Of a DNA stretch of 64,000 nucleotides, positions 18 through 43,340 are shown one piece after another. The first letter of the stretch is position 1. Every line of letters starts with the position of its first letter. This DNA is from Halichondria panicea. Lineage: Eukaryota; Porifera; Demospongiae; Suberitida; Halichondriidae. A model generated the notes under the pieces. The model did not search any database. It was not told where the DNA came from and was given only the letters and a program-made list of their open reading frames with translations. Position numbers and translations under genes: made by a program. The stretch is taken from assembly GCF_963675165.1 (NCBI RefSeq), contig NC_087377.1, positions 13,078,198 to 13,142,197 on the forward strand, given 5' to 3'.

Positions 18-2133
18 TTTCTTTGAATTCCTTGGACCGTCATGCCTCAGCTCACTGTAGTCTCCCTGAGCAGTGACACATACACTACTGTAACACACTG
101 AGTTTATGATCTTACCTGAAGTCCCGACATTTCCACAACATCTTCATTGAGCTCATCTGATTTCTGTCTCCTCAGTAACAGCAGGGCAATCACCACAATG
201 ACCACGAGGCACACAACCACCAGTATACCACCAACAACACCACCTACTACTATAGGTCCAATGCCAGTACCTGGGGGTGATATAATTATGTACAGAGCAA
301 TGTAAAACTAAACAAGTTTATATATAAACATCACCTTCAGTCCTAACTACACACATGATTGCTTCGGGTTCAGTGCTCCATTCTCCAGCATTATTGCAAG
401 TGATGGTGTTGGGCCCAGTCAGTGAGAGTTCATTGTCACACTGGTAAGTCAGCACTGTTCCCTCCAACACTGTCTCGTTCAACCTTTTGTAGTTCACTAT
501 AGTCCCGTTTAAGGGCTCGTCAGGAACAGTGCAGTTGACTAAAATTAGATCAAGGATTGGAAACGGTCGATATTCTGCGATACAACTGTACTGTATTACC
601 TGGACTCACTCTGCATACCAAGCTCCCAGGATTCTCCACCCACTCTCCCCTACCCCCTACATCAGTGCATGTGCTGGTCCTCACATCAAGGGGGAACAGT
701 CCATCATCACAGCGATAGATGACCTGTGAACCCAGTGAGAAGGGTGGTGTTTCCATACCATTGATGTCCACAGTGCCATTGTACGGTACTGTTGGAGAGT
801 CACAGGTGACCGAGGGATCTAATAAGGTCACCATAGAAATATGTACACATTCAATCTGTTATGTATGATATCTATACCTGTAACTGGACTGCTGCAGTCA
901 AAGGTCCCAGGGTCAGGAGACCACCCACTACTGCCACAGGTTGAGGTTATCACTTCACTGTCTCTGCAAGTGAAGGTGAGCATGGATCCACCAATAGTGA
1001 CAGGAGGTGTGTTGGTGATAGTCACATCAGCAGCAGTAGACGGTGTGGGGCACACAACTGCATTAAGGAGGAGGAATTATATAGTATTAGCTATATAAAT
1101 CATGACTGACTTAGATCCATAATTAAACTCTCTTGGCTCATTCCTGCACAGTTGTCAGCTCTGATAGTCACATTGTAGAGAGTGTTGTAGGAGACAGTTA
1201 TCTGTGCCGAGATGGCCTCCACGGTGACTGGTGACCCGGACAAAGGTGTTGGGGAGATAGTAACGACATAGTTGACAGACACACTGCCAGTAGAGGAGGG
1301 AGGGCCCCACTCCAGGGTAGTATTAGAGTAGCTGGGTTGGTTTAGAGTGAAGGAGACTCTTGGACTCAAGGGAGGGGAGGGTGGATCTGTGTGTGTGTGT
1401 GCATTATACAGGGTGTCTTACAGGATTTTGAAGTAGAGGGGGGAAGTAACAAAAGTAACCAGAAAATTTTGCTACCCTGTTAGTATGTAAAATTGCCAGC
1501 TATGGACACTCAGGTCATACATGAATGCACATTTTAGGGGGGGGGGGGAGAAATTGGATCTAGGGGGGGATATCTCCCCTTCCCCCCTGTACAAAACCAT
1601 GGCACATCATACACTGCATGCACTGTATTATTCGTTTCACGGAAACCAGGCAACGCCCAAACTCTGTCATTCTCATTCATCAACCACTCACCAGCAACAG
1701 TAATGGGAAGAGGACCTTCTCGTGAGCTAGCCCCAATACACTCCACCATAAAACCCTCCACAATGGAGGCCTCGGACAGTGAAGTGAGAGTGGCAGTGAC
1801 ATTATTTTCACTCGTGTCATTGCGAACACCACGGAATGCTGGAATACCTTCTGTGGCATCATCATTATTAAAACGTAAAAATATGCTGAACCGGGCCCCT
1901 TGCAGTGGAGTGATATCCCATTGTATAAAGCTACCAGGCAGAGTGCAGGTGAAGGTGACAGTGTCATCAGGACAAGCCACAGTGGGGGTTATTGTCAAAT
2001 AAGCTGCTTTGTGTAACATTGTTTAATAATAATTTATTATATACATCTACCTACCTTCCCCTCGGCATGACCAACTTAAAATAAGCAACGCTAGAGTGAC
2101 AGCAATCTGTAGATCTGATGATCTTGCATTCAT
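18..2133 (-). CDS. Receptor gene A: signal peptide, Ig-like, FN3, three sushi domains, membrane helix; 3' end outside window
   Basis: Type I membrane protein, read right to left. Exons by eye: 2055-2133 (ATG and hydrophobic signal peptide starting MNARSSDLQIAV), 1692-2006 (Ig-like, CPDDTVTFTC), 1111-1386 (FN3-like), 878-1057 and 600-818 (sushi/CCP), 335-538 (third CCP), 116-270 (membrane helix rich in V/G/L followed by LLLLRRQK), 18-65 (tail with GDYSEL, a tyrosine motif of YxxL type). All joins have GT-AG ends and matching phase; the Ig, FN3 and CCP exons are flanked by phase-1 introns, as usual for shuffled extracellular modules. The 3' end of the gene lies beyond position 1. Likely a cell-surface recognition or adhesion receptor; ligand unknown. 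Exons 1-5 are nearly identical to gene B at 41742-45412, but the membrane and tail exons are unrelated to it. Reading frame is intact in every exon seen. Confidence 0.82.
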
Positions 2134-2192
2134 CTCTGCTACTCTCTCTCTCTATATATTAGGTCTGCACAAAAACCATTCGCTACTAGTAC
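545..2192 (-). repeat. Left arm of inverted segmental duplication (receptor ectodomain)
   Basis: Pairs with 41690-43340 in inverted orientation. Exons 1-5 and introns 1-4 of the receptor genes align almost base for base, including a poly-G run, a TG microsatellite and 48-base intron 1. Differences in exons are few: three in the 315-base Ig exon, three in the FN3 exon. Identity drops in the exon for the third sushi domain and is not visible beyond it. Confidence 0.9.
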
Positions 2193-2298
2193 TCTCTCTC
2201 TATATTTAATATTTAGATCGAAGGTCTGCACAAAAAAAGAATGGTTTCCATATGCTGACTCGAATTATGATCGCCCTCTATATCTTTTCTTTGCAGTC

Positions 2299-3031
2299 GA
2301 TCCCAGGCCGCACTTCCCAGGCCGGTGAAGGAGGCTAGCTCATGGTAGCCTCCTTCACAAAGGCCTCAAAAAGGAGGAGAGCAAAGAAGAGAGGCCTGGG
2401 ATCGAGGCTAAGCTCATGGGTGCTTCTACTCTATACATAGTCTCATGAATCAGCCGCACCTTTGGTGTCAGTCTGAGCACTCTTTATGTGAAGTCATTTC
2501 ACAATGGAATGTATTACGTCACTATACAAGCTGACAAAACCATAAAAATGCAACCACATCCGCTATCTCTGCTCAGCCACATCACTGCTTGCTGCTCAAC
2601 CGCATGTAACGTTTCACTATTTGCTGCCTCCTATTCAAGTCACCTGATGCTTGTGAGCAATCTCATTGGTCACGTTGGAAATCCACTGTGGCCCATGAGT
2701 TCACGTAAAGAGTGCTCAGACGGACACCAAAGGTGCGGCTGATTCATGAGACTACTCTATACGGTGGCCCAGAGAGTTCACAGAGTACGATTGACCTTCG
2801 CTAGTAGACAGTACAATTTACCTTCGCTAGTAGAGAGTTGACCGCTAGTGGACAGTACGATTGACCTTCGCTAGTGGACAGTACGATTAACCTTCGCTAG
2901 TGGAGAGTAAAAGTGACCTTCGCTAGTGGGCAGTACGATTAACCTTTGCTAGTAGAGAGTATGATTAACCTTCGAGTGGAGAGTTCTAGTAAAAGCTCAC
3001 CTTCTAGCTAGAGACCTTTACCTATGTACGT
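2299..3031. repeat. Inverted duplicate of 60674-61726, with short tandem repeats
   Basis: Aligns in reverse complement to 60674-61726. The shared part includes GATCCCAGGCCGCACTTCCC at one end and a tandem array of a roughly 25-base unit (GACCTTCGCTAGTGGACAGT and variants) at 2777-3000. The left copy holds the MITE 2437-2753; the right copy holds a LINE 3' end. A 13-base hairpin (GTGAAGGAGGCTA arms) lies at 2323-2357. Confidence 0.8.
2437..2753. mobile_element. MITE with long terminal inverted repeats and 9-bp target duplication
   Basis: Terminal inverted repeats of about 45 bases (GTCTCATGAATCAGCCGCAC at the left, its complement at the right) enclose an AT-rich core. The 9-base sequence ACTCTATAC stands on both sides (2428-2436, 2754-2762). 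The empty site is present once, without the insert, in the inverted copy of this region near 61650. A diverged relative lies at 45690-45950. A 9-base duplication fits Mutator-like elements. Confidence 0.85.
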
Positions 3032-4258
3032 AGGGGGGTGCTGACCTTATATTTGACCTTTGCTACACACAGATGCTATCTAAAGAGCCATGTGTGGCCT
3101 GCTTTGCAGGGCCGTAAGAAGATTTTTAAGTGGGGGAGGCAGAAAAAAGGAATGGATCCTCTCCTTGCGACGCAGGGGGTGGGTCCCTCCCGTCCCGCCG
3201 GAGGCGAACTTTTTACATTTTGAGAGATAAACAGCTAGGAGAAAGATACATAAATGAAATGATCTGCATGTGAGCTGAGAGCTATACGCAAAATAATTTA
3301 TTCGACGTGTGTTAGTGGAAGCAAAGTCACGAGCAACTGCTTCAAAGTCAAGCGAATCAGTTAGCTACTTGTGTATATAAAGTAAGAATAGACGCTGGGG
3401 ATTCATCGAGCTTCGTAAGAAGAAGGTCTTAGTTCGCCTATACCTCATTCATATAATGGGCAGGCTGAGGTAGTACTGAAGAGAAAAAAGAATGAATATT
3501 GTGCCATAATGAGCTCTAGCTATATAACTTTCAGCTGCATGTGGATCAACTTACTTTAGTTACTGTACAGTGTTGTTGCAACAAACCACATGCATTTAAC
3601 CATAATAACAGGACTGTGATCTGCTGGACTCTGCAGAGGAGCCCCACCCCATTTCACTGTCTGAAAGCCAGGGGGGCTCTGCCCCCCTGGTTTACAGAGT
3701 GGGTGGGCAGTTTCCCCCTAGCCCCCCTGGTTCTTACGGCCCTGCTTTGGACAGCAGGCACAACACTAGATGTCCTAGTGACTCACTAGCCCAGTAGGCT
3801 ACAGTTGAACAGTAAGCAATTAAGCTGCATGGTTGCTTATTTGTGTGCATGTTGGCGCGGCCGGAGGCCGGGAGGCATGCATAAAACATTTGAAACACAT
3901 GCTTTGGTTCCAAGTTTACATTAATAAGTGCATGCACCTTCTGTATATTATACATACAGAAGGTATTGATTTATATACCATGGTACAGAGACTATTAATG
4001 CACATTTAATGTAAAACTTATAACAGAAATTATGGTCAGGGAAGTGAAGTGAAGTGAAAATTTATCATGTATAGTGAGGTTGCATGTATTATTGTATCCC
4101 ACGTTTCTTCCTCTGGAAACTCTCAGCTGAAAAGTAATAACATTGTTATTAGATTATAATGCTTACTTATTCCTCCTTTTTATATACCTTTTACCTTCTT
4201 ACAAGTAGATGAGTCTAGTGCCACAGTAGTTAGTGTATATGGTGCATTGTGAGTATAC
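3032..4258. other. Non-coding stretch, no gene seen
   Basis: No convincing exon. Short repeats only: a GGGGGCTCTGCCCCCCTGG inverted motif near 3675 and a purine-rich GAAGTGAAGTGAA run near 4047. Confidence 0.4.
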
Positions 4259-4261
4259 TTA

Positions 4262-4457
4262 CCTTAGCGGGTAATTTTCGTGGGGTAAAATAATTATTCG
4301 TTCAACTCGAGAAAAGGTGGTTTTCGTGAGTCGTTTAGTCGCGTGGCTGCACGGCCGGCATTCCTATGTTCCGATAAGCCACGCCTACGTTAAAATTTTG
4401 TGGAGGTCAGCCTGCCCACGAATATTTTACCCCACGAAAATTACCCGCTATACGGTA
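4262..4457. mobile_element. MITE with terminal repeats of the GCGGGTAATTTTCGTGG type
   Basis: Left end AGCGGGTAATTTTCGTGGGG and right end CCCCACGAAAATTACCCGCT form an inverted pair about 200 bases apart; the right end continues as ATACGGTA. Member of a family whose ends read TACCGTATAGCGGGAAATTT, seen again at 6089, 9714, 12455, 47088 and 48238. Confidence 0.75.
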
Positions 4458-4776
4458 TTGTCGTGATAGTGTGGTTGGACTCCGCCCAACTATTTCGGTA
4501 CGTGAATGTGAACTCGACTATACTACTGCACTGCACCACACTGTAATTTTTAGCGTACAAGATTTCAAAAACTATTATACCACAATGCTTCATTCCCCAC
4601 CTAGTACCTATGGATTAATTATGATGTGCAAAACCAAGATGACATTTGTAGCAACATTAGCGGTAAGTTGCTGTAGGTACATGTATTATAATATATTTTA
4701 TATTTTTAGTTATTGAGTTGCATCTATCGATGTCAGTCCCACTACCCCCCCCCCCGTGTGGCATAGTGGGGACATA

Positions 4777-4935
4777 CCGTAAAACCTCTATTTAAGGCAA
4801 CCATCTAAATATGCGACACTTGGACATTTCGCCCATATTATAACACCATATAAATTCATTTTTTGTGTACATTAAAACTCTACTTTCGCAAAACGTAATT
4901 ATTTAAAAGTGTCGCCTTAAATCGAGGTTTTACGG
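4777..4935. mobile_element. TA-flanked MITE, 159 bp
   Basis: Perfect or near-perfect inverted ends CCGTAAAACCTCTATTTAAG and its complement, bounded by TA on both sides (4775-4776, 4936-4937). The TA duplication and short length suggest a mariner/Tc1 or pogo-type non-autonomous element. Confidence 0.8.
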
Positions 4936-4937
4936 TA

Positions 4938-6085
4938 GTTAAGTTAGGATTTGATTCAGCAAGTAATCCCGAGGTGCGGGATAGGGTGGGCAATTTGACT
5001 TCCTCAATATACAAACTTTCAACAGTAATATCTAGCCGCGTGTAGTCAAATCCCGATGTTGTTAAGTGGGCCTGGGGGGGGGGTATGGGAGGGGAAGTGG
5101 GGATTTTATTTCAACCAGGCTCCCAGAAGTGGGGCAGTTGATATTGATGTAACCTGGAATGACAGCTTATCGGAAGCCACGCCTTTAATCTTTGCATGTT
5201 ATAGCAGATACTTCTAATTAAAGAACAATTGTCGTGGACTTAATTTTCGTGTAGGATTACTAACCCACAAAATCAGCACCCCTTGAAAATTTCGCGCTAT
5301 ACTCATAATTATAACTTGTTGCCTGAAGTTGATCCATGGTTAACTTCAGTCAACAGATTGCCTGAGTGATCAAATTTGTTATTATTACTAAACCATACTA
5401 CCTATGCCGTCATAATTATCTGAACACGTATCAAAGTGGCCATTTGTGAGTGGCAGAGATTAGTGAACTGATCAAGTTGTATGTAGTTTAAGGTAGTTAA
5501 ACGTAGTTAACGAGGGAGCGGCCTTACCTCGAGGTAAGGGGCACACAGACATACAGGCGTGCCCCTTCTTGCTAAGCTACCGCGCATGCGTAGCCTACAC
5601 GTGCAAGTACACCTGCTTACAGAACTGTCTCACGAGCACACTGGCTGCTGCTCAATTTTCGAGCCTTCCCCCCCCCAGTCGGTTACCACCTATCACCTAT
5701 TTCCATCTGACGATGTGATTACCGGGAGGGGGCTGAATGAGGGCCCCTCAAAAATAACTGTTATTTCAATACCCTGTTATAGTATGTAAAATTGCCAACT
5801 CAGTCCTACAACTAGTACCTGAATGCAAAAAGGGGGGGAAATTGGAGTTAGGAGGGGGATATCCCCCCTTTCCCCCCCTGTATGACACCCTCTCAGGACT
5901 CCCCCAAAACCTAACCACAGTCATGTGACCTTCGACTTCTAGGGCGACAGAGTCCACGGGACACCTGACTCCAGCTTAGACCCGGTACTGCCAAAATGTT
6001 AATAATATCCGCGCACCGGATATGACACTCTAGTTATTGCAACACTCTTGTGACCGTAGTTAAATGAAGAGAGACCCTGCTTTTA
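4938..6085. other. Non-coding stretch with an intron-related repeat
   Basis: No gene seen. The part 5765-5890 (CCCTGTTATAGTATGTAAAA, G-rich tract, CTGTATGACACCC) resembles repeat sequence inside intron 2 of receptor genes A and B (1400-1600, 42250-42480), so an unnamed dispersed repeat is present at all three places. Confidence 0.45.
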
Positions 6086-6088
6086 CTA

Positions 6089-7133
6089 TACCGTATAGCG
6101 GCAAATTTTCGCGTGTGCACATTTTCGCTATTTCGTTCCAGAGCCCTCAGCAGACATTTTCGTGGGTTTTACTTTTCAATGCTAGGAAATCACACCATAG
6201 ATATATAAGAAGGGAGAGGGATGGGAAACGCTACATAAATAGCATTGACGATCCGCGTTTCAGTCAATGTTTTCTTCTTTATTTCCTCCAGCCCATGCTT
6301 TTAGCTAGTACTAGGCTATAAACTAGCTACTGAGCTCCATGTATTAGCAATGGCTAGTGGAACAGTCACAACAAGGTAGCAGCAATAGTTAGTGAGACCC
6401 CTCCAGGCAGTAAAAAGCAGCTTGGACAGGCAAATTCTTGAGAGGAGCTCTGTCTGTATTGTTGAGTATTCTAGTACAGTCACAGACATGATAGGAAATG
6501 TAGCAAAGTTCTGTCGTAAATTATTGTGCCGATACGATGAACCAACTATCAATGAATACAAAGAGACATTTACCTACATTCAATCATTGATATAACTTTC
6601 TAAATGAGTACACAAAAAGTATGCTTGTCAAAACCAGAACATTACTGACCAACCTAAAGCCAAGTAGCTTTGATTTTACTTGCATACAATGCCCAGCTAC
6701 TTAAGAAAGAGGGAATCATTAATATTTTGGGCTGTAGTCACAGCCTCTCCTTGTAGAAGGTACACAAAGCCACTAGATAACCGAAACGATAATACTTGGT
6801 GAGATACACAACGCTTCTATAGGAGGCGTGGATGCTCAGCACAGGACTAAAAGTCCCAGTGGGGAGCTGTGAATGATAGTAATAACATTTCCCGCTTGGT
6901 TGGCGGGGTGTCTAAAGGCGAAACGTGGATCAACTTTTGGCATTACACAGAAGTGATTGTGCGCACGTGCTCCGTTTCCCATCCCTCTCTCTTCTTATAT
7001 CTATGATCACACCCACCAATAGCTTTGCATGTGAAATACTGGTGTGTGGGAGTTTATCCATTTTCGCGTTAACTTCTCTGCCCTCGAAAAACGCAAAATG
7101 TTGCATCCCACGAAAATTTCCTGCTATACGGTA
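6089..7133. mobile_element. Long member of the GTATAGCGG inverted-repeat family
   Basis: Ends CCGTATAGCGGCAAATTTTC and GAAAATTTCCTGCTATACGG are inverted; inner parts (TCTTATATCTATG with CCCATCCCTCTC) also pair across the element. About 1.05 kb with no coding capacity recognised, so it is either an internally expanded MITE or one carrying a later insertion. A possible end of another family (CTAAGGCCACTCCAA) follows at 7213. Confidence 0.6.
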
Positions 7134-7605
7134 TAAAGTCCAATCATTAATCCATTTTTCAGACTCTATTTCAATAATTTAGTCCTTAGTGCCGTAACCA
7201 GTAGAACAGAGCTAAGGCCACTCCAAATCAATTACTTGTTTCTCATCCCCCTGCCGTACCTACTTTGAGCCTGGTCAATTTACCTTGAAAACATACCGGT
7301 TGCTCATCACAAGTTGACCTTTGACCTGCTACTAGCGTGATTTAGTCAAGCACGTGATCTAGCACATAGCCATAGCTAGCTATAGTATCAAAAGAAGACT
7401 GGCTGCTAATTATCTTGCAAAAGAAGGTCTGCGTGATTACAGACACTCCTGCAGACACTCATAGTACATTTGTACACTACTGGTCTACTGTATATGATGC
7501 CTGAAACTTCAGCAACTAATTTTAAAACCAACTATTAAAACAGGAAGTGACTTCATAATTAATAGACCACAACTTCTGGTACCGGCCTGCCGGTGCACTA
7601 TTTTT

Positions 7606-8150: not shown

Positions 8151-8548
8151 AAAACACTACCATATATTACAATATAGATAACAATATGCATGTACACAGG
8201 TCTTTTCTTCTTAGATATTATATACACTGAACTACAGATCCTGGAAGAATCAATTTTCTTCTTTCTTGAGGTCCTGGTAAGCCATATAATACAATAAATA
8301 ACAACAATAGATGCATGTAAATAAGTCTTTTCTTCTCAGTGACTTTATATAGATAAGCTAACTTTAATAAATTCATTATAGAAACTAATAATTATAACAC
8401 GGCGAGAGGCATTAGCACAGCGCCAGCTTGAACACTAGTTACCACTATTTTTAAAGATCAGGGTACAAGTAATAGTTGTACCATGGATATCAAGGGTGTA
8501 TTGGATTTGCCTCCAAGGGAATACATACAACTGCTTGAGGTACAGTAG

Positions 8549-8792
8549 AACCTCGATTATCCGGACACCTTGGTTCCAGAGGCAGCCCGGATAACTGAAT
8601 ATACCGTATAATCGAATAGATAAACCACGCCTTGATCCACCCACTTTATTGATAAACAGCGGCATGGTTGTCTGCGTATGCGCATGCGCAGAAGATAAGC
8701 AGACCTGTCTCCATAGTAACAGCTGCAATGCGCATGCATTCCAAGGACACGCCCATTTTCTAAACAGAAACTTCCAAGCCAGATAATCGAGG
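8549..8792. mobile_element. Tigger/pogo-like MITE, damaged right end
   Basis: Left end AGTAGAACCTCGATTATCCG after a TA; right end CCAGATAATCGAGGTT inverted to it. The expected outermost right bases are missing. The CAGTAGAACC start and TA flank are typical of pogo/Tigger-type ends. Confidence 0.55.
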
Positions 8793-8799
8793 TTACCTT

Positions 8800-11974: not shown

Positions 11975-13869
11975 GTGGTGACGTTTTATATTGCTGCACC
12001 AGTTATTGGTAAGTACAGTAGTTATGGCTGTCCATCCCCATTCATTCAACTATCTTGTTTTTCATGTCTAGGTCAGGTGGAGTACATTAATTCAGATTTG
12101 AATTCTGCCGGCCGTAACTTTTCTTGTTCTAATGAAGTTGTCACATATACTTGCAGAGGGCAAGGAGGCACTCTCTTTGTAGATTCTCCACCATTGTTTA
12201 ATCATCCTTTCGGCAGTACCGGTCCTGTTCCAAACGCTCAAGTATTCCCCTCTGCTCCAAATGTTGTTCTTAATCTTATAAACAGATTTACAAACTTGTC
12301 GGGTACATATTATGATGTTAGTCTTCAAATCGGAGTATCGAGTGATGTGCGGATTAATGTTTCATGTTCTACGGATGTTCCTGGCCCTCTGAATGATTTT
12401 GTATTACCATTGATCCACGAGTGTGAGTTTCTCTAGTAATATGAGTAATTGTTAGCTGGTAATTCCGGGGGACAAAATTTTCGTGGTTGGAGCTCAGACA
12501 ATGAATATTTACCCACGAATGAAGCGACTGCCTACATTTACCTGCAGTGCAAGCAGCAACTACGAAAATATATTCCACGAAGTGACTAAATATTGCTCAA
12601 CCACGAATGTTTTGTCCCCGAAAATTGCCAGCTGTACGGTATTACATTATACCCGATAGAAGGTATTTTGAGGTTGCGTATTTACTAATGTACCACGAAA
12701 TTTATACCCACGAATTATTAATTTTGGTTGTCCACAAAAATCGGCAAAACCCTTTTTAATAGTATTCCGCAAAAGTTTATACCCTCTTGCTATACGGTAT
12801 TGCATTCTTAGAGTGCAATATGCATAAGTACTTGTCCCGAATTAGCCAGCTAGATTTAGTACCCCTGTTTCTTGTCCCGAAAGGAAAATTCAAATATCCA
12901 GGAAGGGTTATGCAGGCATGAAGGCATGAAGCACCGCGCAGTGCCGCAAATCTTTTACGGAAGCATAGATAATTTAGACAATAGAAGCCTATTTAGCTAT
13001 ATATACGAACAGAAGCATATGCATGAGGAGATGGAGCGACTTACTATGCATAATAATTATTGCGGACTCAATATCGTCTAACCACATTTCCATGTGCTGT
13101 ACATGTGCGGCTGATAACGCAGCTCTTAGCGGTTTAACATAGTTCCATCTCCTCCTCATGTGCTCCTGATACAAACGAGTGTGCAAGCGCACGCTTGCTA
13201 ATGCCTCTCGCTATGTTTTTGCTTTCGCTCAAAAGTATTAGAGTGTACGTTTTGCAATGGGCTTTGATTGTTTCACAAGAAAGGGGTATCCACAGTTAAT
13301 AGTGCATACTGATTGTGCCTGTAGCCAAGGCATAGTCAGTATAGTCTGTGAGATAAACGACAGAATTCAATCACAGAGAGTAGTATCTATAACAAGCAGT
13401 CTAAAAAGAGTTTAATCAATAAAAGCACCGCGGGTGCTGATGTCTCGGTGGAGATGCCAAGGCTACATAACATAAAGTTACTAATAGCTTTTATACACAT
13501 GATAAACAATTGCTGCATGCAAAAACTCAGGAATGGGTAATGATCGACCGTGATTGTTGTTAAAAACTATCGATGCCAAAAGTTCAAGTTTAAATTAATG
13601 GCTGCATTAGCAGAGCCTTTGCAGCTCTCTTCTCACTCTTGCAGCTACCAATAGCTAGCGTTCTAGTGCAGAGCTAACTACTAAGTAGAGTAGCAACACT
13701 CGGTAAACAAGTTTGGCTACGTGCTCTTCTGAAAAGGCTGTAATGGCTCCAAGTAGGCATAACTCGAGAACGAAGCATTATTTTGTAAATCCACGAATTA
13801 AAATCCAAGTGAACATGACTAGAAGCCTATAGAAACTCTTGATTCATCCTTGGAGCAGCTGTAGCAATC

Positions 13870-19900: not shown

Positions 19901-21914
19901 ATAGAATGGAATGTGCGTGGGAGTTGCATACTCCTCTTCATACACTCCTGTTAAAACTAATAACTTATTGTGTGAAGACTATTCATGATGTAGACGCAGT
20001 GCTGTGGCATCCAGGTGAGCAAGCTCAGATCTGACAAACACAACTATACCTGCTGGCCGTGCAAGTCCAAACGACTACTATACCCGTGGCGGCTCACGCG
20101 CCTCGGATAATGATACTAATTACGTAAAACATGCAACAAAGTGATTCCCGAAATCCTTCCGTGCAACGGTAGAGGGCAGCGGTGCCTGACTACTCAACCA
20201 CGATGAGTAATTGTGATCCTTCATATAATTATACAGCACGAGTGGAACCACCATCCGATGTGAGGAGTTTTTACACTGTTAAGTGTGCTGAGCTTATAGC
20301 AAGTCGATCAGTTCGTGTCTGGTGGACCCCACCTGCGAACTCCCAATTTGACATTGATTATTATCTTGTAAGAGTTTACAGGAACAGAGTGTTGTACACA
20401 ACTATAACGTCTACTAACAATAGTCTGAATGTTAGCATTCCATTTGGAGCAATAAGTGCTGATGTTAGAAGTGTTTCCACTTGCGGCACTATCAGTGCTG
20501 CAGGAGCATCAACAGACGAATCAGTTAATGAAGGATGTCCAGGTTTGTTTGAAACAAATCCTCATGCATGAATCTAATTATCTTTGTTCCCTTTTGTAGA
20601 GTTTTATTTTGGTTTTTTGGTTCCAACACTAATCGGTTTTCTCCTCATCGTCACTGTTATCATACTGGTTATGTTTCTTGTGATAGCAAAGAGGAAGGTG
20701 AGCATAATAATTATTATAATAATAATAATAATTTATACATAAATTGTGTATGCGTGTACTGCCTTGATGTTAAATATCGACAGTTCACGCATGTGTACTT
20801 AGCCTTATTTTGCTCCTCTTGCAGATATCACTCTTGCAAGTAAATGATGAAAAGGTGTGTATGTATGTATATCTATTGATATGCATGTAACAATGTTGGC
20901 TGTATCAAAATGGTAGTATATATATATATATATATACAGTAGACTCTCGCTATTCCGGCTCTCTGAAGTACGGCCACCTCGATATACAGTAGACTCTCGC
21001 TATTCCGGCTCTCTGAAGTACGGCCACCTCGATATACCGGCCATTTGGTTTGGCACGGAATGCTAGCTATATGTTTACTGCACAAAACTCACCCTGAAGT
21101 ACGGCCACTCGCTATTCCGTTTACTGGCTGTCCCAAACACATGCTAGCTATATGTTTACTGCACAAAACTCACCCTGAAGTACGGCCACTCGCTATTCCG
21201 TTTACCGGCCAGTGCTGGCTGTCCCAAACAAGGTTTTCAATGTAATTTTATACGTATATTACGGCCGGATATGACGTTTTGGGTGTGGTTTAGCAAATAA
21301 AATTGGATTACACTATATTGGATTACAAATTGGATTAGAATAGAGAACAGAATGATTCATTATCCTTTATTATCCTCGAGACAAGAACCGCAAAAGTAGT
21401 CATTAGAGATTCAAGGTAAGGTCGTTTTTAAGCCGCGGCTATTTTCTGAGCTACAGCCACCTCGCTATTCCGGCCAAGCTGCATGGTCCCAAGGGTGACC
21501 GGATTAACGAGAGTCTACTGTAATGATAATAACCTTTGCATAATTATGTTAAATCAGCTGTGGATTTTCTAAGAGTATGTAGTAGTAATTAGGCCTTGAT
21601 AAATAATTATTATGCTTTTTTTCACCCATTATTCTATTCTTTAATTCTTGAAAATGTGCCTATTATTCACATAAAAAATCCGATTATTCTCATAAAAGTG
21701 CAAAAAAATGCGACATATTAATTATAGACATGGACATTGATGCCTATTATTCCCAATATTGTTTAGATGCCTATTATGCTTAAATTATTACGAGCATAAT
21801 TTATCAGGGCCTAGTAGTAATTTATAATTTCATATTAATTTTGTCTCACTACTTTTATGTTTGATATTTCCCCAGGGCGAAGCTCTTGAACCACATCGAC
21901 AGTCATCGCAATAA
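11975..21914 (+). CDS. Receptor gene C (partial model): Ig-like, FN3, membrane helix, short tail
   Basis: Third receptor of the cluster. Supported exons: a short one at about 11975-12009, Ig-like 12073-12421 (CSNEVVTYTC then DVRINVSC), FN3-like about 20233-20542 (WWTPPANSQFDIDYYLVRVY), membrane helix 20600-20697 (EFYFGFLVPTLIGFLL.. ending AKRK), a 30-base tail exon 20825-20854, and a last exon 21876-21914 ending in TAA. Phases match across each join (phase 1 up to the helix exon, phase 0 after). The Ig domain resembles those of genes A and B in its CxxEVVTYTC core and spacing. No sushi exon and no clear signal exon were found, so the 5' end is missing or hidden. The tail (about 22 residues) has no tyrosine. 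The 7.8 kb intron between Ig and FN3 is full of mobile elements; joining the two halves into one gene is inference. Confidence 0.6.
12455..12641. mobile_element. MITE, GTATAGCGG-related family
   Basis: Left end AGCTGGTAATTCCGGGGGAC and right end GTCCCCGAAAATTGCCAGCT are inverted, about 190 bases apart, ending in GTACGGTA. It lies 30 bases after the Ig exon of receptor gene C, inside its long intron. A diverged second copy follows at about 12660-12800 (ends CTTGCTATACGGTA). Confidence 0.7.
12802..13420. other. Intronic stretch, one internal inverted pair
   Basis: No exon recognised. GCATGAGGAGATGGAGCGAC (13022) and its approximate complement near 13143 pair, suggesting a small foldback of about 120 bases. 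Confidence 0.35.
13420..13951 (-). mobile_element. Hairpin-ended dispersed element, subtype 2
   Basis: Ends with ACCGTATACCTCGCTTGCG and hairpin ending CCGAGGCATAAT, preceded by a CA microsatellite. The far end carries TCTCGGTGGAGATGCCAAGG, shared in reverse with 46357-46905. The body resembles subtype 1 (lines such as GCATAACTCGAGAACGAAGC) but the terminal hairpin sequence is different. Confidence 0.65.
14064..14559 (-). mobile_element. Hairpin-ended dispersed element, subtype 1
   Basis: Starts GTGGCTTACCAGGACCTCAG and ends CCTCGTGCGGCTACGCCTCG plus AGGCATAA; near full-length copy of 7606-8150 in reverse. Confidence 0.7.
14624..15520. mobile_element. piggyBac-type non-autonomous element, TTAA target
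   Basis: 897 bp flanked on both sides by TTAA (14620-14623, 15521-15524). Terminal inverted repeats CCCTTTCCCGGCTTT and AAAGCCGGGAAAGGG. A perfect palindrome GGACGACATATGTCGTCC sits just inside the right end (15487-15504). TTAA duplication with CCC/GGG termini is the signature of piggyBac elements. No transposase is encoded; the autonomous partner need not be the piggyBac gene at 62.5 kb, whose ends were not found. Confidence 0.85.
15762..16838. mobile_element. TIR element with nested inverted repeat
   Basis: Outer ends TACCGTATATGCTCGATCAG and CTGATCAAGCATATACGG... are inverted. Inside, a second inverted pair (AGAAGAGGGCATGCAACTCA near 16032 and its complement near 16590) encloses about 0.55 kb including a GCTA microsatellite (16165-16193). 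Two layers of terminal repeat suggest one element inside another. No transposase recognised. Confidence 0.55.
16839..17213. other. Intronic stretch with a short foldback
   Basis: No gene. GCACTGATTCTGCATG (17140) and its reverse complement near 17180 form a foldback: AATGCACTGATTCTGCAT and ATGCAGAATCAGTGCAT. Confidence 0.4.
17217..17484. mobile_element. MITE with AGGCCACTCCAAGTGATACT ends
   Basis: Inverted ends of at least 34 bases (GGCCACTCCAAGTGATACTC and GAGTATCACTTGGAGTGGCC continue into GGTTTCTGGTCC). Flanked by TAA on each side, so the target duplication is TA or TAA. About 270 bp. A related end lies at 7213. Confidence 0.8.
17485..18564. other. Intronic stretch, nothing recognised
   Basis: No exon or paired ends; simple AGCTAGCTAGCT run at 17995-18015. 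Confidence 0.4.
18565..18925 (+). mobile_element. Hairpin-ended dispersed element, subtype 1 (shortened)
   Basis: Starts CCTCGAGGCGTAGCCGCACG then ATATGGTAAAGCTGTCTGTG; the middle is deleted relative to 7606-8150; ends near CTTGGTAAGCCACC. Confidence 0.6.
19362..20110. mobile_element. TIR element, about 0.75 kb
   Basis: Left GGCGGCCACGGGTATAGTAGT and right ACTATACCCGTGGCGGCTCACG are inverted. It contains two copies of a CACCTGGATG..CAGCATGG..CACACAAC block (19447 and 19605). The same block, as GCTCACCTGGCTGCCATAAT, opens intron 6 of receptor gene B near 43647. It ends about 120 bases before the FN3 exon of gene C. Confidence 0.55.
20937..21520. mobile_element. CAGTAGAC-family MITE with duplicated left end
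   Basis: 584 bp between TA repeats, inside the last long intron of receptor gene C. The first 50 bases are present twice in tandem (20937-20986, 20987-21036), and an inner block of about 82 bases (GCTAGCTATATGTTTACTGC..) is also doubled (about 21060 and 21142). Right end AACGAGAGTCTACTG. Confidence 0.85.
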
Positions 21915-36402: not shown

Positions 36403-36568
36403 GTAACAAAATTAATTAGCCATGTCAATATGAGTGGGTGGGTGAATAGGCTGCGGTGTTGTCACCCACTAAATTAACCACAGTACTCATTCAATAGCAT
36501 GATAACACTTCTCAGATGCATTATGGCGGGTATTTTGCGATCTCTGGTTCTCTTAGACTTATTACAAA

Positions 36569-37702
36569 ATGGCTGACCAGCAGAAAGAGACATTCTAAAG
36601 ATCCAAGCTCAAGAGGCTCAATCGAAAAGCTAGAGTTGACAAAATTGGCAAGCAGCTGTGTATGGAGAAGAAGAGCCTTGAATGTGCCGAGAAAAATGTT
36701 CAGAATTGGAAGAAGAAGGCAATAGATTATAAACTGTAAGTTGCTGATTAACAGCCAGTAAATAATATTGTTCATACAGGGAACTCAACGTGTATCGAGC
36801 TAAGCAATTACGGACAGGAACTCTGGGAACATCCTGCAGTCACCAACGACCACTAAAGTTGCTAACAGCAGCCATGAAGACGAGTGCAATCAGTCTACCC
36901 AAGGCAACTCCAAGAATGTGTACGAATGCTGATATTATGCGAGGAGTTACTGTAGTTCCAGAGATAAGTGAGAAATGTTTAGCAGATGGGGGTGGTGATG
37001 TTCATATAGGAAATGGTCGGTTTGGAACATGCTCTCGTATGATTTTTAAAGAGTGTTTTGACGTCTGTGTCAAAACATTTACTTCCGACTCCTCAATCGA
37101 ATCGATTAGGCATGAAGCCAGTATATTACTTACATTAAATTCCAGCCCTTATATACCACACTGTTTTCCACCAGGAGAGCTTTAGTAATGTCTAATGTAA
37201 GCGTGAAGCAGCAACAAGTTTCATTATATTCTGCCTTGTATTCGACTAACGAAATTAAATTAAGCCCTAAGACATGCGTGGATGCAAATACTGATCCAAA
37301 TTTGTGATGGTCTATCATACATGCACAAGCTGAGTCTTCTTCACAATGATCTTAAAGTAGACAACGTAGTATTAGGGACTACTTTGTTAGAATGTATCCG
37401 GCCATGTATTGTGGATTTTGGAAAGGCATGTAAAGAAAAGCATGCTAAGAAGTACTGCCTGACCGAGGAACAGAAAGTTATTTACAAAAAAGAACACACT
37501 CAAGTAGCTCCAGACCTCCGCGATGGGCTTGTTTTACAGAGCACATGCACAGAGCGATATATACTCATTAGGTAGAATAATGAAGAAGATGAACTCCATT
37601 GTAATTAAGTCAACTGAACTTGCCCATGTAATTAAGGAATGTCTTTCTTATCATGCTCATGACCGTCCTAGCTTAGAAACCATTTCTCTTAATGTTGAAT
37701 AA
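36569..37702 (+). pseudogene. Coiled-coil plus protein-kinase-domain pseudogene
   Basis: Starts ATG with MADQQKETF, then an in-frame TAA, then a charged helical segment (SKLKRLNRKARVDKIGKQL). A 44-base GT-AG intron ends at 36779. The kinase part shows the glycine loop GNGRFGTC, the VK lysine (DVCVKTF), the C-helix glutamate (IRHEASIL), HNDLKVDN in place of HRDLKxxN, DFGKA, then SDIYSLGRIM and HDRPSLETI up to TAA at 37702. Single-base shifts are needed near 37183, 37280 and 37540 to keep the frame. The catalytic Lys, Asp and DFG are present, but HRD arginine is replaced by Asn. Divergent to the repeat-type gene on its left, with only about 170 bases between. Confidence 0.72.
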
Positions 37703-38001
37703 TTATTATGACTATGTGACTAATTATGTCGTACATTCATTCGTTCATGTTTAAATCTGGTGCTAGCTTTAACTATGACATAGTCTATGTATATAATTGT
37801 AGGCAAATCCGTGCTCTCTAATGGAAGGCTGACAAGGTTAGCTGTAAGTCGGGATGCGTGTTGACCCAGCCATTTGTTTGAGAGTCATTAAAAGCATTAT
37901 GGTAGAGAATTGGCCTGAAGCAGTTAGTTATGAGTCACATAGTGCGTATTGGCTGCTCAGGTTGGGCCATGCATGCATTAACAATTAACAATTAACAATG
38001 A
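37703..38001. other. Spacer between kinase pseudogene and chromodomain gene
   Basis: No gene; tandem ATTAACA repeats at 37977-37997. Confidence 0.35.
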
Positions 38002-38826
38002 TCAACAACATTTTTTCACCAGATTTACACATACAATTTCAGATAGTAGTCTAGGTGACTCTAACATTTCACCATTGCTATTTCTATATGTTTTCGGTCC
38101 ATACTTAATTCTAGGACATACTACAATAGGAAAATCTACTGTGCAGCCATTGCCATATCTATCATACAAAATATACCAACTACCTATAAAATATTCATCG
38201 TTAAAATCAGTTTGTTGAAGTTGGAGCTTTCCGCGGGTCATTTGGGTTCCTCGATCTTTAAATAGGTAACGAAATACATCTAGCCGGAAATCTATAGTTA
38301 AATTACAGGATTTTACAGTACCTAAATTTAAACTACATTGAATGGACAGAACAAATCTTCTTGTTGCGTCACTTATAAGCTCGGTATGTGGTGCTTGTGG
38401 TGTATTGTATGATCTGAAAGGGGGGAAATGTGCAGATATAATTATAGTAATACACAGTGCACTGGCATGCCATACTTAATAATCTTACTGGATAGTAGAG
38501 ACAGTCACATCTTCCTTAGCGACCCATGAAGACTGTTCCAATGAGTAACCAGCCCACTTTACCAAATACTTCGTTTTCCCCTAGAAATAGAATCAATCGT
38601 ATAGGGCTATATATCATAAAATGTTACGTACCTTAGTTAGTCGATGATGAATTATCCTCTCAACAAGGAAGACCCCTTCTGGCAGACTGTCATCAGACTT
38701 ACAGCTCAGAGTGGTTCTCACATCTCGTGCTTCCCGCATGCTAGATAAGTCCATGTCAGCCGAGCTTATATTATGGAGGTAGGAATAGTATCCTTTCTCA
38801 GGTCGTTGCCTCTTTGACGAGTCCAT
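38002..38826 (-). CDS. Chromodomain protein with an unrecognised C-terminal region
   Basis: Three exons read right to left: 38632-38826 (ATG, MDSSKRQRPEKGYYSYL .. VFLVERIIHHRLTK), about 38499-38581 (KYLVKWAGYSLEQSSW .. EDVTVSTIQ) and 38002-38414. The first two join to a canonical chromodomain: VERII, YLVKWAGY, W..E. Such domains bind methylated histone tails or related marks in chromatin. The last exon (about 135 residues, IQCSLNLGTVKSCNLTIDF, GSWYILYDRYGNGC, VVCPRIKYGP) matches nothing I know; it contains several cysteines. The full product is about 230 residues and appears open through all joins. Could be a host gene or part of a mobile element, since chromodomains are common in both. Confidence 0.68.
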
Positions 38827-39096
38827 AACAGGTCGATCTGCATGAACAGGTCTGCTGGAAGATTAATAATTAGTGACCATAAAGATTTTATCTCTATTCA
38901 TTTGACACACTTTACTACCATTGATTGCATGCTATTACTGTCATGTGAATCAGTAAATTACTATACAAAAAATAACAGAGAAAGAATTGAGATGGGAAAT
39001 TGCTGCCACTTCCACCCGTACCCGTACTACATCGACTCCGACTTATGAGAGATCAGGCACCACAGGAACTCCTTTCCTATTGGGTCGCTAGTAAAG

Positions 39097-39369
39097 ATGG
39101 GAACTGAGGGAAAACAATTTTATTTTACAACAGCAGATGATACTGGAACACATTATTTTCCGATGGGGTCTCAGAAAAAGGCCCAGAACTATTTAAAGAA
39201 AGTTGTGAGGCTCAGCCAAACATACGATGTCCAGGTGTCAGAAGTTTTAAACCCAGACTACACGTTGCTAGGATTTAGAGCCAAAAAAACAAAAGAAGAA
39301 AGCACAAAAGAAGCGGACAACAAAGAGCCAAGAAAGAAAGTTAAATTAAATTTAGTAAAAGTGTTGTAA
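39097..39369 (+). CDS. Small lysine-rich hypothetical protein
   Basis: 90 codons starting MGTEGKQFYFTTADDTGTHY and ending in a basic tail (KEPRKKVKLNLVKVL). ATG to TAA is one open exon. The composition (folded-looking N-terminal half, charged K/E tail) is protein-like, and it stands 270 bases from the chromodomain gene in divergent orientation. No family recognised; might also be the last exon of a longer gene. Confidence 0.4.
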   Translation: MGTEGKQFYFTTADDTGTHYFPMGSQKKAQNYLKKVVRLSQTYDVQVSEVLNPDYTLLGFRAKKTKEESTKEADNKEPRKKVKLNLVKVL

Positions 39370-39756
39370 CTATAGAACAGGACTGAGAAGAATATGACTG
39401 AGAACTCACTACTATACTGTACTGTTCTATATAATTATTTACTGTGGTAGATCTCTCTAGTCACTGTTACAGGCCGATAAAAGTAATAACAAAATACTGA
39501 GCTGGCAGTACTGCATGCTCAGTATTTTGTTATTACTTGTACCGGTGTCATAGGATAGAACCTCCGGGCGACAGTTTCTCCCCCGGAGCCTGCGGTCTTA
39601 GGACAATGCCTCCCCCCGGTGGTTTTGTCCTAGGACAGAATCCCCGCCCCCAGGATATATCATCCGGGTACATGTACCCTGTCAAAAAACCTGTCAAAGC
39701 TTTAGTATAATAAGCGTGCGCGTGCATGCGAAATGTATAGACTGTTAGCAATCAGA

Positions 39757-41072
39757 ATGGCTACTCAACAAGAGTATGAGGACATACTGCTGTACAAGAC
39801 TGCTGCCAGCAATGCTGGCCAGAAGAAATACAGAGACGGGCTTTCCACTAATGACAAGAGAAGTATAAGAGACAAAGCTCAAAGGTATGCTCTGCAGCAA
39901 CAATGCTTATACCTGCCTGAGAAGGACAGCACTGGCATCCATAGAATGAGAAGAGTTGTGGTGAAGCAAGAGGAGAAAAGCAGGATACTAAACATGTGCC
40001 ACGATGGACTGGATGGAATGCATTTTGGGAGAGACAAGACCTATGGAAAGGTATATTTATCATCATATCTTATAAAGTATAATTATATCTGTTTCATGCA
40101 TGTAGGTTGCTCAGGATTTCTACTGGAAAGACCTACATGCTGACGTCATACAGCTCTGCAAGCACTGCGACAAATGCCAACGAACGAATCACCAACTGCA
40201 GAAGCCCAGAGCAGAACTACATCCCATCCCTGTGACAAAGGTCTGGTACAGAGTTGGTATTGACTTGGTAGGACCTGAAACAAGCTCTGGAAACAAGTAC
40301 ATTATCACGCTCTCAGACTATTTCTCTAAGTGGCCTGAGGCTGCCCCACTCCCATCAAAATCAGCAGAAGGTGTAGCAAAATTTCTGTTTGACACATTTT
40401 GCAGGCATGGGTGGCCAAAAGTGATTCAATCAGACCAAGGAAGAGAGTTTGTCAACGAAATCAATGTACACATGCAGCTGTGCAAATCTTCTTTGTTGAA
40501 GAATGACAGCACTGGATTGCCACTTCTCTGTTTAAGGGTGAACTGTATTTGTACGACAGCTGCTTCAATGGAACGCTTTCCCCAAGTACTGAGCTCCAGA
40601 TAGCACAAGTGTATAGCCCATTAATTCAATGCAATGGGCTGTTGATTTCTGTGGTGGCTCTCCAGCAGCAAGAGGGTGCTAACAACTGCGGACTATTTAG
40701 CATTGCTGCTGCATATCACGCTGCTATGAACGATAATGTGGATTCTCTAGTGTTTGATGAGGCCAAAATGAGAGCACATCTCATTAAGTGCTTTGAGAAG
40801 GGCAAACTCTCACGGTTCCCTCGCACAAAGAAAGCGATGCCCAAAAGACCAACACCACAAACCATTGCCATTACAATATACTGCATGTGCGAGAGACCGG
40901 ACTCTTTTGAGGATATGGTCATGTGTGACAAATGTAGTGAGTGGTATCATAGCCTCGATTCAAGGCCGTATTTTAATCGGCCTGGAATCGAGGCTAGTGG
41001 TATCACTATCGCTGTGCCAAAATTCACAAAGAACCAGTAGGTAATTGGTTTTGTTCTGGTTGTATCACTTTA
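39757..41072 (+). pseudogene. Integrase, Ulp1-like protease and PHD finger of the Ginger-like element (decayed)
   Basis: Exon 1 from ATG (MATQQEYEDILLYK) to 40050; intron 40051-40105; exon 2 follows in frame. Integrase: zinc-binding H2C2 (CHDGLDGMHFG, LCKHCDKC) and the catalytic core with the first two acidic residues (GIDLVGP, QSDQGREF); the glutamate region is missing because sequence jumps at about 40465 straight into a C48 protease. The protease shows HWIATS, YLYDSC and QQEGANNCGLFS, giving His, Asp, Gln and Cys. Then a PHD finger (YCMCERPD, MCDKCSEWYH, RCAKIHKEP, FCSGC) that is split by a 46-base palindromic insertion at 40950-40995. A frame change lies between integrase and protease. 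Not able to transpose itself. Confidence 0.8.
40950..40995. mobile_element. 46-bp palindromic mini-element with 10-bp target duplication
   Basis: TAGCCTCGATTCAAGGCCG at the left pairs with CGGCCTGGAATCGAGGCT at the right around TATTTTAAT. AGTGGTATCA stands on both sides (40940-40949, 40996-41005). Removing the insert and one repeat restores the PHD finger reading frame. Confidence 0.85.
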
Positions 41073-41432
41073 TGATTTGTGCACTTTTGGTTATATTTAT
41101 TGTACTTCTTTCTCTTGCATTGTTGTATAATTATATTGAGTATTGAATTTGAGATCTATAACATAATAGATACAGCATCTAGTTAGGCTTTGTCTATGGC
41201 TGTTACTTCGTAGCCTAGACTAGTCCTCTCAGATTACCTGTGGACTGACTTTCACCTGCACCGCAGAATGGGGGAGCTCTGGTCCTGGGGTAGGAGCTTT
41301 TGTCCTAGGACAGAAACTCCGGGGGGAGGAAATATCCTAAGGACGGAACCCCCCCCCCCGGAGCTCCTGTCCTGGGGGAGGCCGTGTCCTGTGACACCGG
41401 CCTGTAACAGTGACTAGAGAGATCTGCCACAG

Positions 41433-41689
41433 GATAGAATCTACCACAGAAGTCTACATGATCTCAACCAACAGGTAAACAATAATATTACTCACCAGCA
41501 CCAGTGCAGTGAACGTAGCTAGTTCAGCAAAGATCTTGCGCACGCACTACAATAGTCTATAGTAGCATTTATTTCCGCAGTAGTTAAAATGATTGAGTAA
41601 TATTTGAGTTTTCATATAAATAGAACAAATATTTAGACAGGATGCTAGAACATTAGTGTCCAAAATACAATGGCAATTGTAGGGGAGTC
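41433..41689. other. Spacer upstream of receptor gene B
   Basis: Nothing recognised except ATCTACCACAG, an extra piece of the palindrome arm at 41449. Confidence 0.35.
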
Positions 41690-41741
41690 TGTAGCGAATG
41701 GTTTTTGTGCAGACCTAATATATAGAGAGAGAGTAGCAGAC
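41690..41741 (+). promoter_or_regulatory. Shared proximal 5' flank of receptor genes A and B
   Basis: The bases just before the ATG are the same in both paralogues (2134-2192 on the other strand): a TAATATATAG stretch followed by a GA-rich run. The TATA-like string lies about 20-30 bases upstream of the ATG, so it could be a core promoter or part of a short 5' UTR. In gene A the flank has an extra partial duplication of this block (about 2160-2245). Homology between the genes ends just upstream. Confidence 0.3.
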
Positions 41742-43340
41742 ATGAATGCAAGATCATCAGATCTACAGATTGCTGTCACTCTAGCGTTGCTTATTTTAAG
41801 TTGGTCATGCCGAGGGGAAGGTAGGTAGATGTAAATAAGAAATTATTATTAAACAATGTTACACAAAGCAGCTTATTTGACAATAACCCCCACTGTGGCT
41901 TGTCCTGATGACACTGTCACCTTCACCTGCACTATGCCTGGTAGCTTTATACAATGGGATATCACTCCACTGCAAGGGGCCCGGCTCAGCATATTTTTAC
42001 GTTTTAATAATGATGATGCCACAGAAGGTATTCCAGCATTCCGTGGTGTTCGCAATGACACGAGTGAAGATAATGTCACTGCCACTCTCACTTCACTGTC
42101 CGAGGCCTCCATTGTGGAGGGTTTTATGGTGGAGTGTATTGGGGCTAGCTCACGAGAAGGTCCTCTTCCCATTACTGTTGCTGGTGAGTGGTTGATGAAT
42201 GAGAAGGACAGAGTTTGGGCGTTGCCTGGTTTCCGTGAAACGAATAATACAGTGCATGCAGTGTATGATGTGCCAGGGTTTTGTACAGGGGGGAAGGGGA
42301 GATATCCCCTCCTAGATCCAATTTCTCCCCCCCCCCCCCCTAAAATGTGCATTCATGTACTAGTTGTATATGACTGAGTGTCCATAGCTGGCAATTTTAC
42401 ATACTAACAGGCTAGGGTAGCAAAATTTTCTGGTTACTTTTGTTACTTCCCCCCTCTACTTCAAAATCCTGTATGACACCCTGTATAATGCACACACACA
42501 CACAGATCCACCCTCCCCTCCCTTGAGTCAAAGAGTCTCCTTCACTCTAAACCAACCCAGCTACTCTAATACTACCCTGGAGTGGGGCCCTCCCTCCTCT
42601 ACTGGCAGTGTGTCTGTCAACTATGTCGTTACTATCTCCCCAACACCTTTCTCCGGGTCACCAGTCACCGTGGAGGCCATCTCGGCACAGATAACTGTCT
42701 CCTACAACACTCTCTACAATGTGACTATCAGAGCTGACAACTGTGCAGGAATGAGCCAAGAGAGTTCAATTATGGATCTAAGTCAGTCATGATTTATATA
42801 GCTAATACTATATAATTCCTCCTCCTTTAATGCAGTTGTGTGCCCCACACCGTTTACTGCTGCTGATGTGACTATCACCAACACACCTCCTGTCACTATT
42901 GGTGGATCCATGCTCACCTTCACTTGCAGTAGAGACAATGAAGTGATAACCTCAACCTGTGGCAGTAGTGGGTGGTCTCCTGACCCTGGGACCTTCGACT
43001 GCAGCAGTCCAGTTACAGGTATATATATCATACATAACAGATTGAATGTGTACATGTTTCTATGGTGACCTTATTAGATCCCTCGGTCACCTGTGACTCT
43101 CCAACAGTACCGTACAATGGCACTGTGGACATCAATGGTGTGGAAACACCACCCTTCTCACTGGGTTCACAGGTCATCTATCGCTGTGATGAGGGACTGT
43201 TCCCCCCTGATGTGAGGACCAGCACATGCACTGATGTGGGGGGTAGGGGAGAGTGGGTGGAGAATCCTAGGAGCTTGGTGTGCAGAGTGAGTCCAGGTAA
43301 TACAGTACAGTAACAGAACAAGGTCAGCCATTAAATTGTC
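41690..43340 (+). repeat. Right arm of inverted segmental duplication (receptor ectodomain)
   Basis: Partner of 545-2192. See that entry for the alignment limits. The spacer between the arms is about 39.5 kb. Confidence 0.9.

Follow-up and report, generated by a model that had tools for sequence, protein, structure and literature searches.

Matched receptor heads on two unrelated tails in a sponge gene cluster: a candidate paired-receptor system in Halichondria panicea

The 64,000-nucleotide stretch of Halichondria panicea DNA analyzed here (the window; C1:13078198-13142197, where C1 is contig NC_087377.1 of a 131 Mb sponge genome in 39 contigs) holds two receptor genes in opposite orientation. 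Gene A lies on the minus strand, from 2133 down to the window start, and gene B on the plus strand at 41742-45412. Both splice in frame with GT/AG introns and have the same exon order: signal peptide, immunoglobulin (Ig)-like domain, FN3-like domain, sushi 1 (S1), sushi 2 (S2), sushi 3 (S3), and membrane/tail. Sushi domains in A and B match Pfam at 45.8 and 49 bits, above the cut-off of 20.7, and the Pfam fn3 matches of 20.8 and 20.3 bits are under the cut-off of 25. The features of the two genes, in window coordinates, are as follows.

2055-2133, minus: gene A exon 1, signal peptide, ATG at 2133 (in-frame splicing, GT donor)
1692-2006, minus: gene A exon 2, Ig-like domain (splicing; weak profile matches to antibody heavy-chain variable domains, VH)
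1111-1386, minus: gene A exon 3, FN3-like domain (splicing; Pfam fn3 20.8 bits, cut-off 25)
878-1057, minus: gene A exon 4, sushi 1 (splicing)
600-818, minus: gene A exon 5, sushi 2, the final exon closely shared with B (97.3% identity to B)
539-599, minus: gene A intron 5, head/tail breakpoint (56.9% to B)
335-538, minus: gene A exon 6, sushi 3 (splicing; 83.8% nucleotide identity to B; Pfam sushi)
116-270, minus: gene A exon 7, membrane helix and beginning of the A-type tail (splicing; membrane-exon search)
18-65, minus: gene A exon 8, GDYSEL tyrosine exon; the gene continues beyond the window (splicing; paralogue tails)
41742-41820, plus: gene B exon 1, signal peptide (splicing)
41869-42183, plus: gene B exon 2, Ig-like domain (splicing)
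42506-42781, plus: gene B exon 3, FN3-like domain (splicing; Pfam)
42836-43018, plus: gene B exon 4, sushi 1 (splicing)
43078-43296, plus: gene B exon 5, sushi 2 (splicing)
43297-43354, plus: gene B intron 5, head/tail breakpoint (segment identity)
43355-43561, plus: gene B exon 6, sushi 3 (splicing; Pfam)
45156-45412, plus: gene B exon 7, membrane helix and B-type tail, PVYEEV ... NQAYGPVGL, stop (splicing; tail search)

When the window was compared with itself by BLASTN, the A-B match was the top-scoring repeat (349-2194, minus, against 41685-43547, plus; 94.7% over 1871 bp, E reported as 0.0). An initial annotation of this DNA had described the two genes as alike nearly base for base, introns included, from 5' of the ATG to S2, and this holds at 95.8-100% nucleotide identity per segment: signal peptide exon 100, intron 1 95.8, Ig 99.0, intron 2 97.7, FN3 98.9, intron 3 100, S1 98.3, intron 4 96.6, and S2 97.3. 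The likeness starts ~56 bp 5' of the ATG, and farther upstream, B shows no relation to A (41-48% per 80-bp step). Past S2, identity falls to 56.9% in intron 5 and 83.8% in S3, so the sharp step that had been expected near 43340 was found by segment comparison at B 43297-43354. Likewise, the estimate that about 14 of the 69 S3 residues differ agrees with the alignment (14/69, one a gap). BLASTP aligned residues 1-425 of A with 1-427 of B and gave no match between the tails; its only other match covered 17 residues (E 3.8) and paired the A signal peptide with the membrane part of B. The two genes therefore carry the same head on unrelated membrane/tail exons, as had been proposed.

Genome searches place A and B in a very large family that has two main types of tail. 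Counted as exon matches, not all of which are necessarily working genes, the B protein gave 200 genome matches, all on C1 among the matches listed, and the B-type tail gave at least 150 scored matches, of which 149 of those listed were on C1 and 145 of those listed were at C1 11.2-13.95 Mb. All except two of the 119 genome matches to the Ig exon were on C1. The A-type membrane exon gave 21 matches, of which 7 were strong (at least 72% identical, all on C1) and the remaining 14 were at most 58% identical, and a tail exon bearing immunoreceptor tyrosine-based inhibitory motifs (ITIMs, described below) gave 22, all on C1, the last three being short. Identically scoring matches recur at similar spacing at C1 11.69-11.71 and 12.41-12.43 Mb, and at 11.80-11.81, 12.04, and 13.23 Mb, a pattern that suggests segmental duplication within the cluster in the recent past. 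Divergent Ig-FN3-sushi genes with an ITIM exon at C1:13762758, 13517391, and 12295050 form another ITIM-tail branch. Apart from the receptor family, a search for COX1 gave a single short match, a 64-residue fragment on C1 that has TGA at an expected Trp and whose nearest PDB chain is a plant COX1.

To describe how heads and tails are combined, we compared 7 A-tail, 24 B-tail, and 3 divergent ITIM-tail genes. Loci were initially picked as best matches to B, so that heads of the class to which A and B belong (class 1) are over-represented, but the A-tail set and the partner search for the A-tail gene a13606 were independent of that choice. The tail types of b12010 and b13452 were taken from the tail-match list, not from their exons, and exons with pieces spanning more than 700 bases would drop out of the twin comparison. 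A B-tail gene with a near-identical head exists for every A-tail gene (7/7), across four head classes; putatively ligand-binding ectodomains that are nearly identical are what paired receptors have. Nucleotide identity in the Ig exon between the four head classes is about 49-82%. By comparison, identities to the twin in the six A-tail genes with an Ig exon were as follows: a11409 to b11436, Ig 100 (FN3 99.3); a11510 to b12441, Ig 96.6 (and to b11532, S1 99.4); a12187 to b12198, Ig 100 (FN3 91.4; and to b11605, S1 98.3, S2 99.0); a13001 (C1:13.001 Mb) to B, Ig 97.8; A to B, Ig 99.0; and a13634 to b13609, Ig 95.0 over a partial exon. The seventh, a13606, matches b13609 at 97.1 in FN3 and 97.4 in S3. 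Some heads are composite. The head of a12187 is a patchwork, with its Ig exon identical to that of b12198 and its S1-S2 closest to b11605. Similarly, b12057 has a class-1 signal peptide, Ig, and FN3 followed by a different S2-S3 (98-99% to b11943 and b11847) and a B2 tail, and b13045 has a foreign stretch from intron 4 to S2. The class-1 head is present in six genes in the genome (A, B, and four others).

The end of near-identity also differs among pairs. For A-B, and likewise for those class 2 and 3 pairs with a common S2, it falls at intron 5, and S3 there is 84-88% alike; it continues through S3 in a13001-B and a13606-b13609, and it ends after FN3 in a12187-b12198.

Heads and tails have separate histories. 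Trees of the heads required 6 tail-type changes for Ig (30 rows), 5 for FN3 (31), and 6 for S1+S2 (31), compared with means of about 5.6, 6.5, and 6.6 for shuffled labels. These observed changes are close to the shuffled means, and the tail label is therefore scattered over the head trees almost randomly, on the Ig tree no less than shuffled labels are. In the approximately unbiased (AU) test, a single clade of A-tail genes was rejected with each data set (p 2e-35 for Ig, 5e-8 for FN3, and 5e-6 for S1+S2), so the head trees reject a single origin of the A-tail genes. The clearest case is A and a13001, which are 98.6% identical from the signal peptide to intron 3 but differ in the tail region: intron 6 is unrelated (54.7%), the membrane exon is 90.1% identical, intron 7 72.0%, and the GDYSEL exon 93.3%. 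From this we conclude that the heads are younger than the A-type tails. By contrast, A and a12187 are 96.6% identical in intron 6, 88.2% in the membrane exon, 76.0% in intron 7, and 89.1% in the GDYSEL exon, and only 75% in Ig. Either class-1 heads were joined to A-type tails twice, or their homogenization followed the divergence of the tails.

Of the two origins offered in the initial annotation, a gene copied upstream of a different tail or conversion of the 5' exons, the comparison of A with a13001 favors conversion or recombination. Gene conversion would be the simplest process because the partners are inverted, and unequal crossing-over between them would yield inversions. Homogenization by gene conversion, a further property of paired receptors, is reflected here in the decoupled head and tail histories; that the exchange was conversion and not another process is our inference.

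Two of the class-1 B-tail genes, b13045 and b13145, look like whole-gene copies of B, with 97.5-98.3% identity among the three over intron 6 and the tail exon. The sequence directly upstream of B (window 41440-41684) is unlike that of A, a13001, b13045, and b13145, which have a common proximal stretch, and is possibly a different promoter. The third class-1 B-tail gene, b13145 (C1:13145318-13149119), is frameshifted by a 4-base insertion in sushi 2, which marks either a null copy or an error. This recalls the 4-base deletion of the SIGLEC16P allele in primates, as given in the part of the source consulted (PMC5701461).

The layout of the cluster is also uneven by strand. The minus strand carries every A-tail gene (7/7), vs 25 of the 149 B tails on C1 among the matches listed (Fisher 8.6e-6, ignoring common descent). 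For 6 of the 7 A-tail genes, the next plus-strand B tail rightward among the matches listed lies at a distance of 4-48 kb and is of the same head class, a count that was made once the pattern had been seen.

We then considered what the tails might do. The exons of gene A after GDYSEL were not readable, and the A-type tail was read in six paralogues. There it consists of small single-tyrosine exons (GDYSEL, EGYSRV, LTYDEV, EGYSTM, and PGYGQL) and a last exon with VVYAAL and VTYATV, for seven tyrosines overall. The ITIM rule is [ILVS]xYxx[ILV], and three of the seven (LTYDEV, VVYAAL, and VTYATV) match it in all six readable paralogues; an ITIM-bearing member is another property of paired receptors. 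The motifs first singled out as signalling elements, GDYSEL and PVYEEV, are outside this rule, and the ITIMs sit instead in later exons beyond the window. Shuffles of the composite A-type tail contained three ITIMs at 0.0009 and six Yxx[ILV] at 5e-5. The ratio of non-synonymous to synonymous change (dN/dS) in the ITIM exon was 0.12, with exons in several pieces or with stops dropped, and with pair sums of dN and dS that are not independent. At this ratio, the A-type tail is under purifying selection. Even the divergent gene c13762, with matches of only 38-45% in its S3, S2, FN3, and Ig exons, keeps the A-type tail motifs or close forms of them. Its ITIM exon has a proportion of synonymous differences (pS) of 0.15, vs 0.6-1.0 in the other small tail exons, and seems to have been homogenized with the A-type.

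The B-type tail is also conserved at its tyrosines, with YEEV in 22/22 copies and AYGP[LV] in 21/22, and its end, VYEEVSPKEEIELNTNQAYGP[LV]GL, is exact in 12 of the 22. For the B2-form tail, dN/dS was 0.10 in the last 30 codons and 0.47-0.52 across the whole B tail exon. The motif YEEV is similar to pYEEI, the optimum for Src SH2, and the YEEV/YGP[L/V] pair resembles, in its motifs, an activating motif (ITAM) with long spacing, a weaker likeness than that of the A-type ITIM set. Opposite signalling by the two tails is likely from these motifs. As to partners in the genome, C3:8404573-8406287 (minus) has a pair of SH2 matches and, after them, a partial phosphatase match, an order that would fit an SHP-like gene. 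Most tyrosine phosphatase exon matches among those listed (176 overall) are at C4 0.04-2.6 Mb, along with many sushi matches, and this region is a second large expansion.

Variation within the heads was compared by segment. In the six class-1 genes, its proportions of non-synonymous (pN) and synonymous differences were 0.052 and 0.035, and those of introns 1, 2, and 3 were 0.018, 0.022, and 0. Variable sites numbered 34/315 in Ig vs 6/276 in FN3 (p 2e-5), in counts that drop columns gapped in B and so skip the 4-base insertion of b13145. Ig dN/dS was 1.52 in class 1, 0.82-1.00 in the other close sets, and 0.60 over all genes, and FN3 dN/dS within classes was 0.40-1.37 on few changes. The Ig variation permits relaxed constraint as well as diversifying selection. 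Twelve of the 25 variable Ig residues are within positions 29-60 of 104, again counted after the pattern was seen; if this is a V-type domain, a fold that is itself putative, these positions correspond approximately to strands C to C''. The top profile matches of the Ig exon were mostly antibody heavy chains but were weak (best E 0.007), and Pfam gave nothing below E 0.06 on this exon among 14 members. A single-sequence structure model of the exon was unusable (pLDDT 39) and was set aside.

Taken together, we consider it probable that A and B form one paired receptor unit among several in a very large cluster, with one head class and opposed tails that are kept matched by conversion. Such units would share a recognition head (Ig-FN3-sushi x3). 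The several ITIMs of the A-type tail would recruit SH2-domain phosphatases and inhibit, and the YEEV/YGP[L/V] pair of the B-type tail would recruit Src-type SH2 kinases and activate. Heads may be held matched across tails by ectopic gene conversion that acts repeatedly on the 5' exons, mostly between inverted neighbors, with the B-type head presumably copied onto the A-type tail. The two members could then have a common ligand and a role in sensing self/non-self or microbes. The earlier comparison with paired receptors thus gains weight, as the pattern recurs in 7/7 A-tail genes and the six readable A-type tails have three ITIM matches. A more specific version is tentative and rather doubtful: a sponge self/non-self locus in which germline heads, varied in Ig, are converted onto ITIM and activating tails, giving many specificities both an inhibitory and an activating form.

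Several results weigh against the paired-receptor reading. We looked for an Ig exon in a13606 and found none, and a13634 breaks the neighbor rule, with its twin to the left. On the membrane exon alone, A is slightly nearer a13001 (90.1%) than a12187 (88.2%), so only the introns separate the tails strongly. The ITIM exons of gene A itself are assumed from the six paralogues. For the B tail, dN/dS over the whole exon is as high as 0.52, shuffles reach the motif number of the tyrosine pair YEEV-x13-YGP[V/L] at 0.19, and a 13-residue spacing is long for an ITAM. No charged residue for an adaptor was found in either membrane helix, A or B. The excess of variable sites in Ig over introns 1-2 is modest (34/315 vs 21/347, p 0.03), and diversifying selection on Ig is not established because the overall Ig dN/dS is 0.60 and FN3 is high too. 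Finally, exchange mixes heads among B-tail genes as well, and for this reason, the matching may be a by-product of proximity.

This last point bears directly on neutral concerted evolution, a credible but on the whole unlikely explanation in which near and similar copies swap 5' exons, the tails are simply two subfamilies, and head matching is functionless. It would account for the foreign intron 4-S2 of b13045 and the class-1 head on the B2 tail of b12057, and twins are indeed mostly close neighbors. However, the tyrosine motifs are kept in both tail types (dN/dS 0.10-0.12), and a matched partner exists for all seven A-tail genes, although equally close twins may be as common among random B-tail genes. 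It is distinctly unlikely that the A-type tail is instead an activating multi-tyrosine scaffold or an endocytic tail, such that the tails differ in strength or route but not in sign. All seven tyrosines of the composite A-type tail are Yxx[ILV] or YxxM, forms that fit PI3K or endocytic motifs too, but three are full matches to the ITIM consensus and are kept even in the divergent c13762. Very unlikely is an origin in one inverted duplication of a whole gene, with a different tail later gained by one copy through capture or divergence. The inverted orientation of A and B would fit this, as would the two whole-gene copies of B with tail regions 97.5-98.3% alike, but the pattern is present in four head classes, the trees need 5-6 tail changes, and A and a13001 combine a common head with an unrelated intron 6 and a 90% membrane exon. 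An assembly artefact (alleles, or one locus assembled twice) is highly improbable even though a single assembly was examined, as the upstream region and tail of B are unlike those of A, the six class-1 copies occupy separate sites, and other classes show the pattern too. Cis alternative splicing joining A and B was rejected because the genes are on opposite strands.

Known paired systems offer a context for the paired-receptor reading, and our comparisons draw on parts of the papers cited. In primates, SIGLEC11 and SIGLEC16 lie head-to-head ~9 kb apart as paired receptors with inhibitory and activating signalling, and ~3 kb with their N-terminal exons is highly alike through repeated gene conversion (PMC5701461). 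The sponge genes are similarly inverted, with apparently converted 5' exons and opposed signalling predicted from motifs. However, SIGLEC11/16 are one vertebrate pair of sialic-acid lectins, with activation via an ITAM adaptor, whereas the sponge cluster has seven A-tail genes, four head classes, and FN3 and sushi domains. In CEACAM1/CEACAM3-type pairs, ITIM and ITAM-like members have ligand-binding exons matched via conversion and recombination, and the CEACAM subclusters are two and oppositely oriented (PMC2832619). Matched, putatively binding exons, tails predicted to be opposed, and an inverted arrangement are therefore in common, although the CEA family is a vertebrate one. To our knowledge, neither FN3 nor sushi domains are part of it.

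Among invertebrates, the fester family and FcoR of Botryllus are Ig+sushi receptors in adjacent pairs at a polymorphic multigene locus, with ITIM or hemITAM in the co-receptor tails (PMC12065747). These are likewise invertebrate Ig+sushi receptors in pairs with ITIM-type tails. Yet the domain order of FcoR is Ig, sushi, and two C2 Ig, compared with Ig, FN3, and three sushi exons in the sponge, and in Botryllus, the FF and FcoR that make up a pair are distinct receptors and do not combine one head with two tails. The proposed likeness to cnidarian allorecognition genes stands only in part. The Alr genes of Hydractinia, a non-bilaterian, form a large Ig-superfamily cluster of 41 genes with ITIM/ITAM reported on candidate genes (PMC12065747, PMC11999971). 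A large non-bilaterian cluster of receptors with at least putative Ig domains and with ITIM matches is thus shared, but the Alr ectodomain consists of V-set/I-set Ig, and the sponge heads have FN3-like and sushi exons. By domain make-up, the sponge cluster is outside both the Botryllus and Hydractinia families, even as it resembles paired systems by anatomy.

In the parts consulted, paired stop/go receptors are mainly a vertebrate subject, and a tunicate has Ig+sushi receptors in pairs (PMC12065747). Within what we saw of the open-licence PubMed Central literature, we found no paper describing sponge receptors that bear ITIMs or form pairs. If the more specific self/non-self version is true, paired receptors would extend to the base of animals, by descent or convergence. 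We know of no settled set of genes behind sponge allorecognition, and a cluster that repeatedly joins one head to an ITIM tail and to another conserved tyrosine tail provides candidates. Conversion between inverted neighbors is a suggested mechanism that could tie opposite signals to one specificity.

The rest of the window contains a few other features. An open frame at 11975-12436 (plus) has an Ig-like look, although Pfam gave no Ig match for it, and another at 20173-20571 (plus) has a weak FN3 match; together, they are perhaps a further receptor between A and B. A protein kinase piece is present at 37264-37575 (plus), and an integrase core with a zinc-binding domain is at 40106-40600 (plus). 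Lastly, a 483-residue open frame at 62550-63998 (minus), open at the window end, matches the DDE_Tnp_1_7 transposase at 228 bits.

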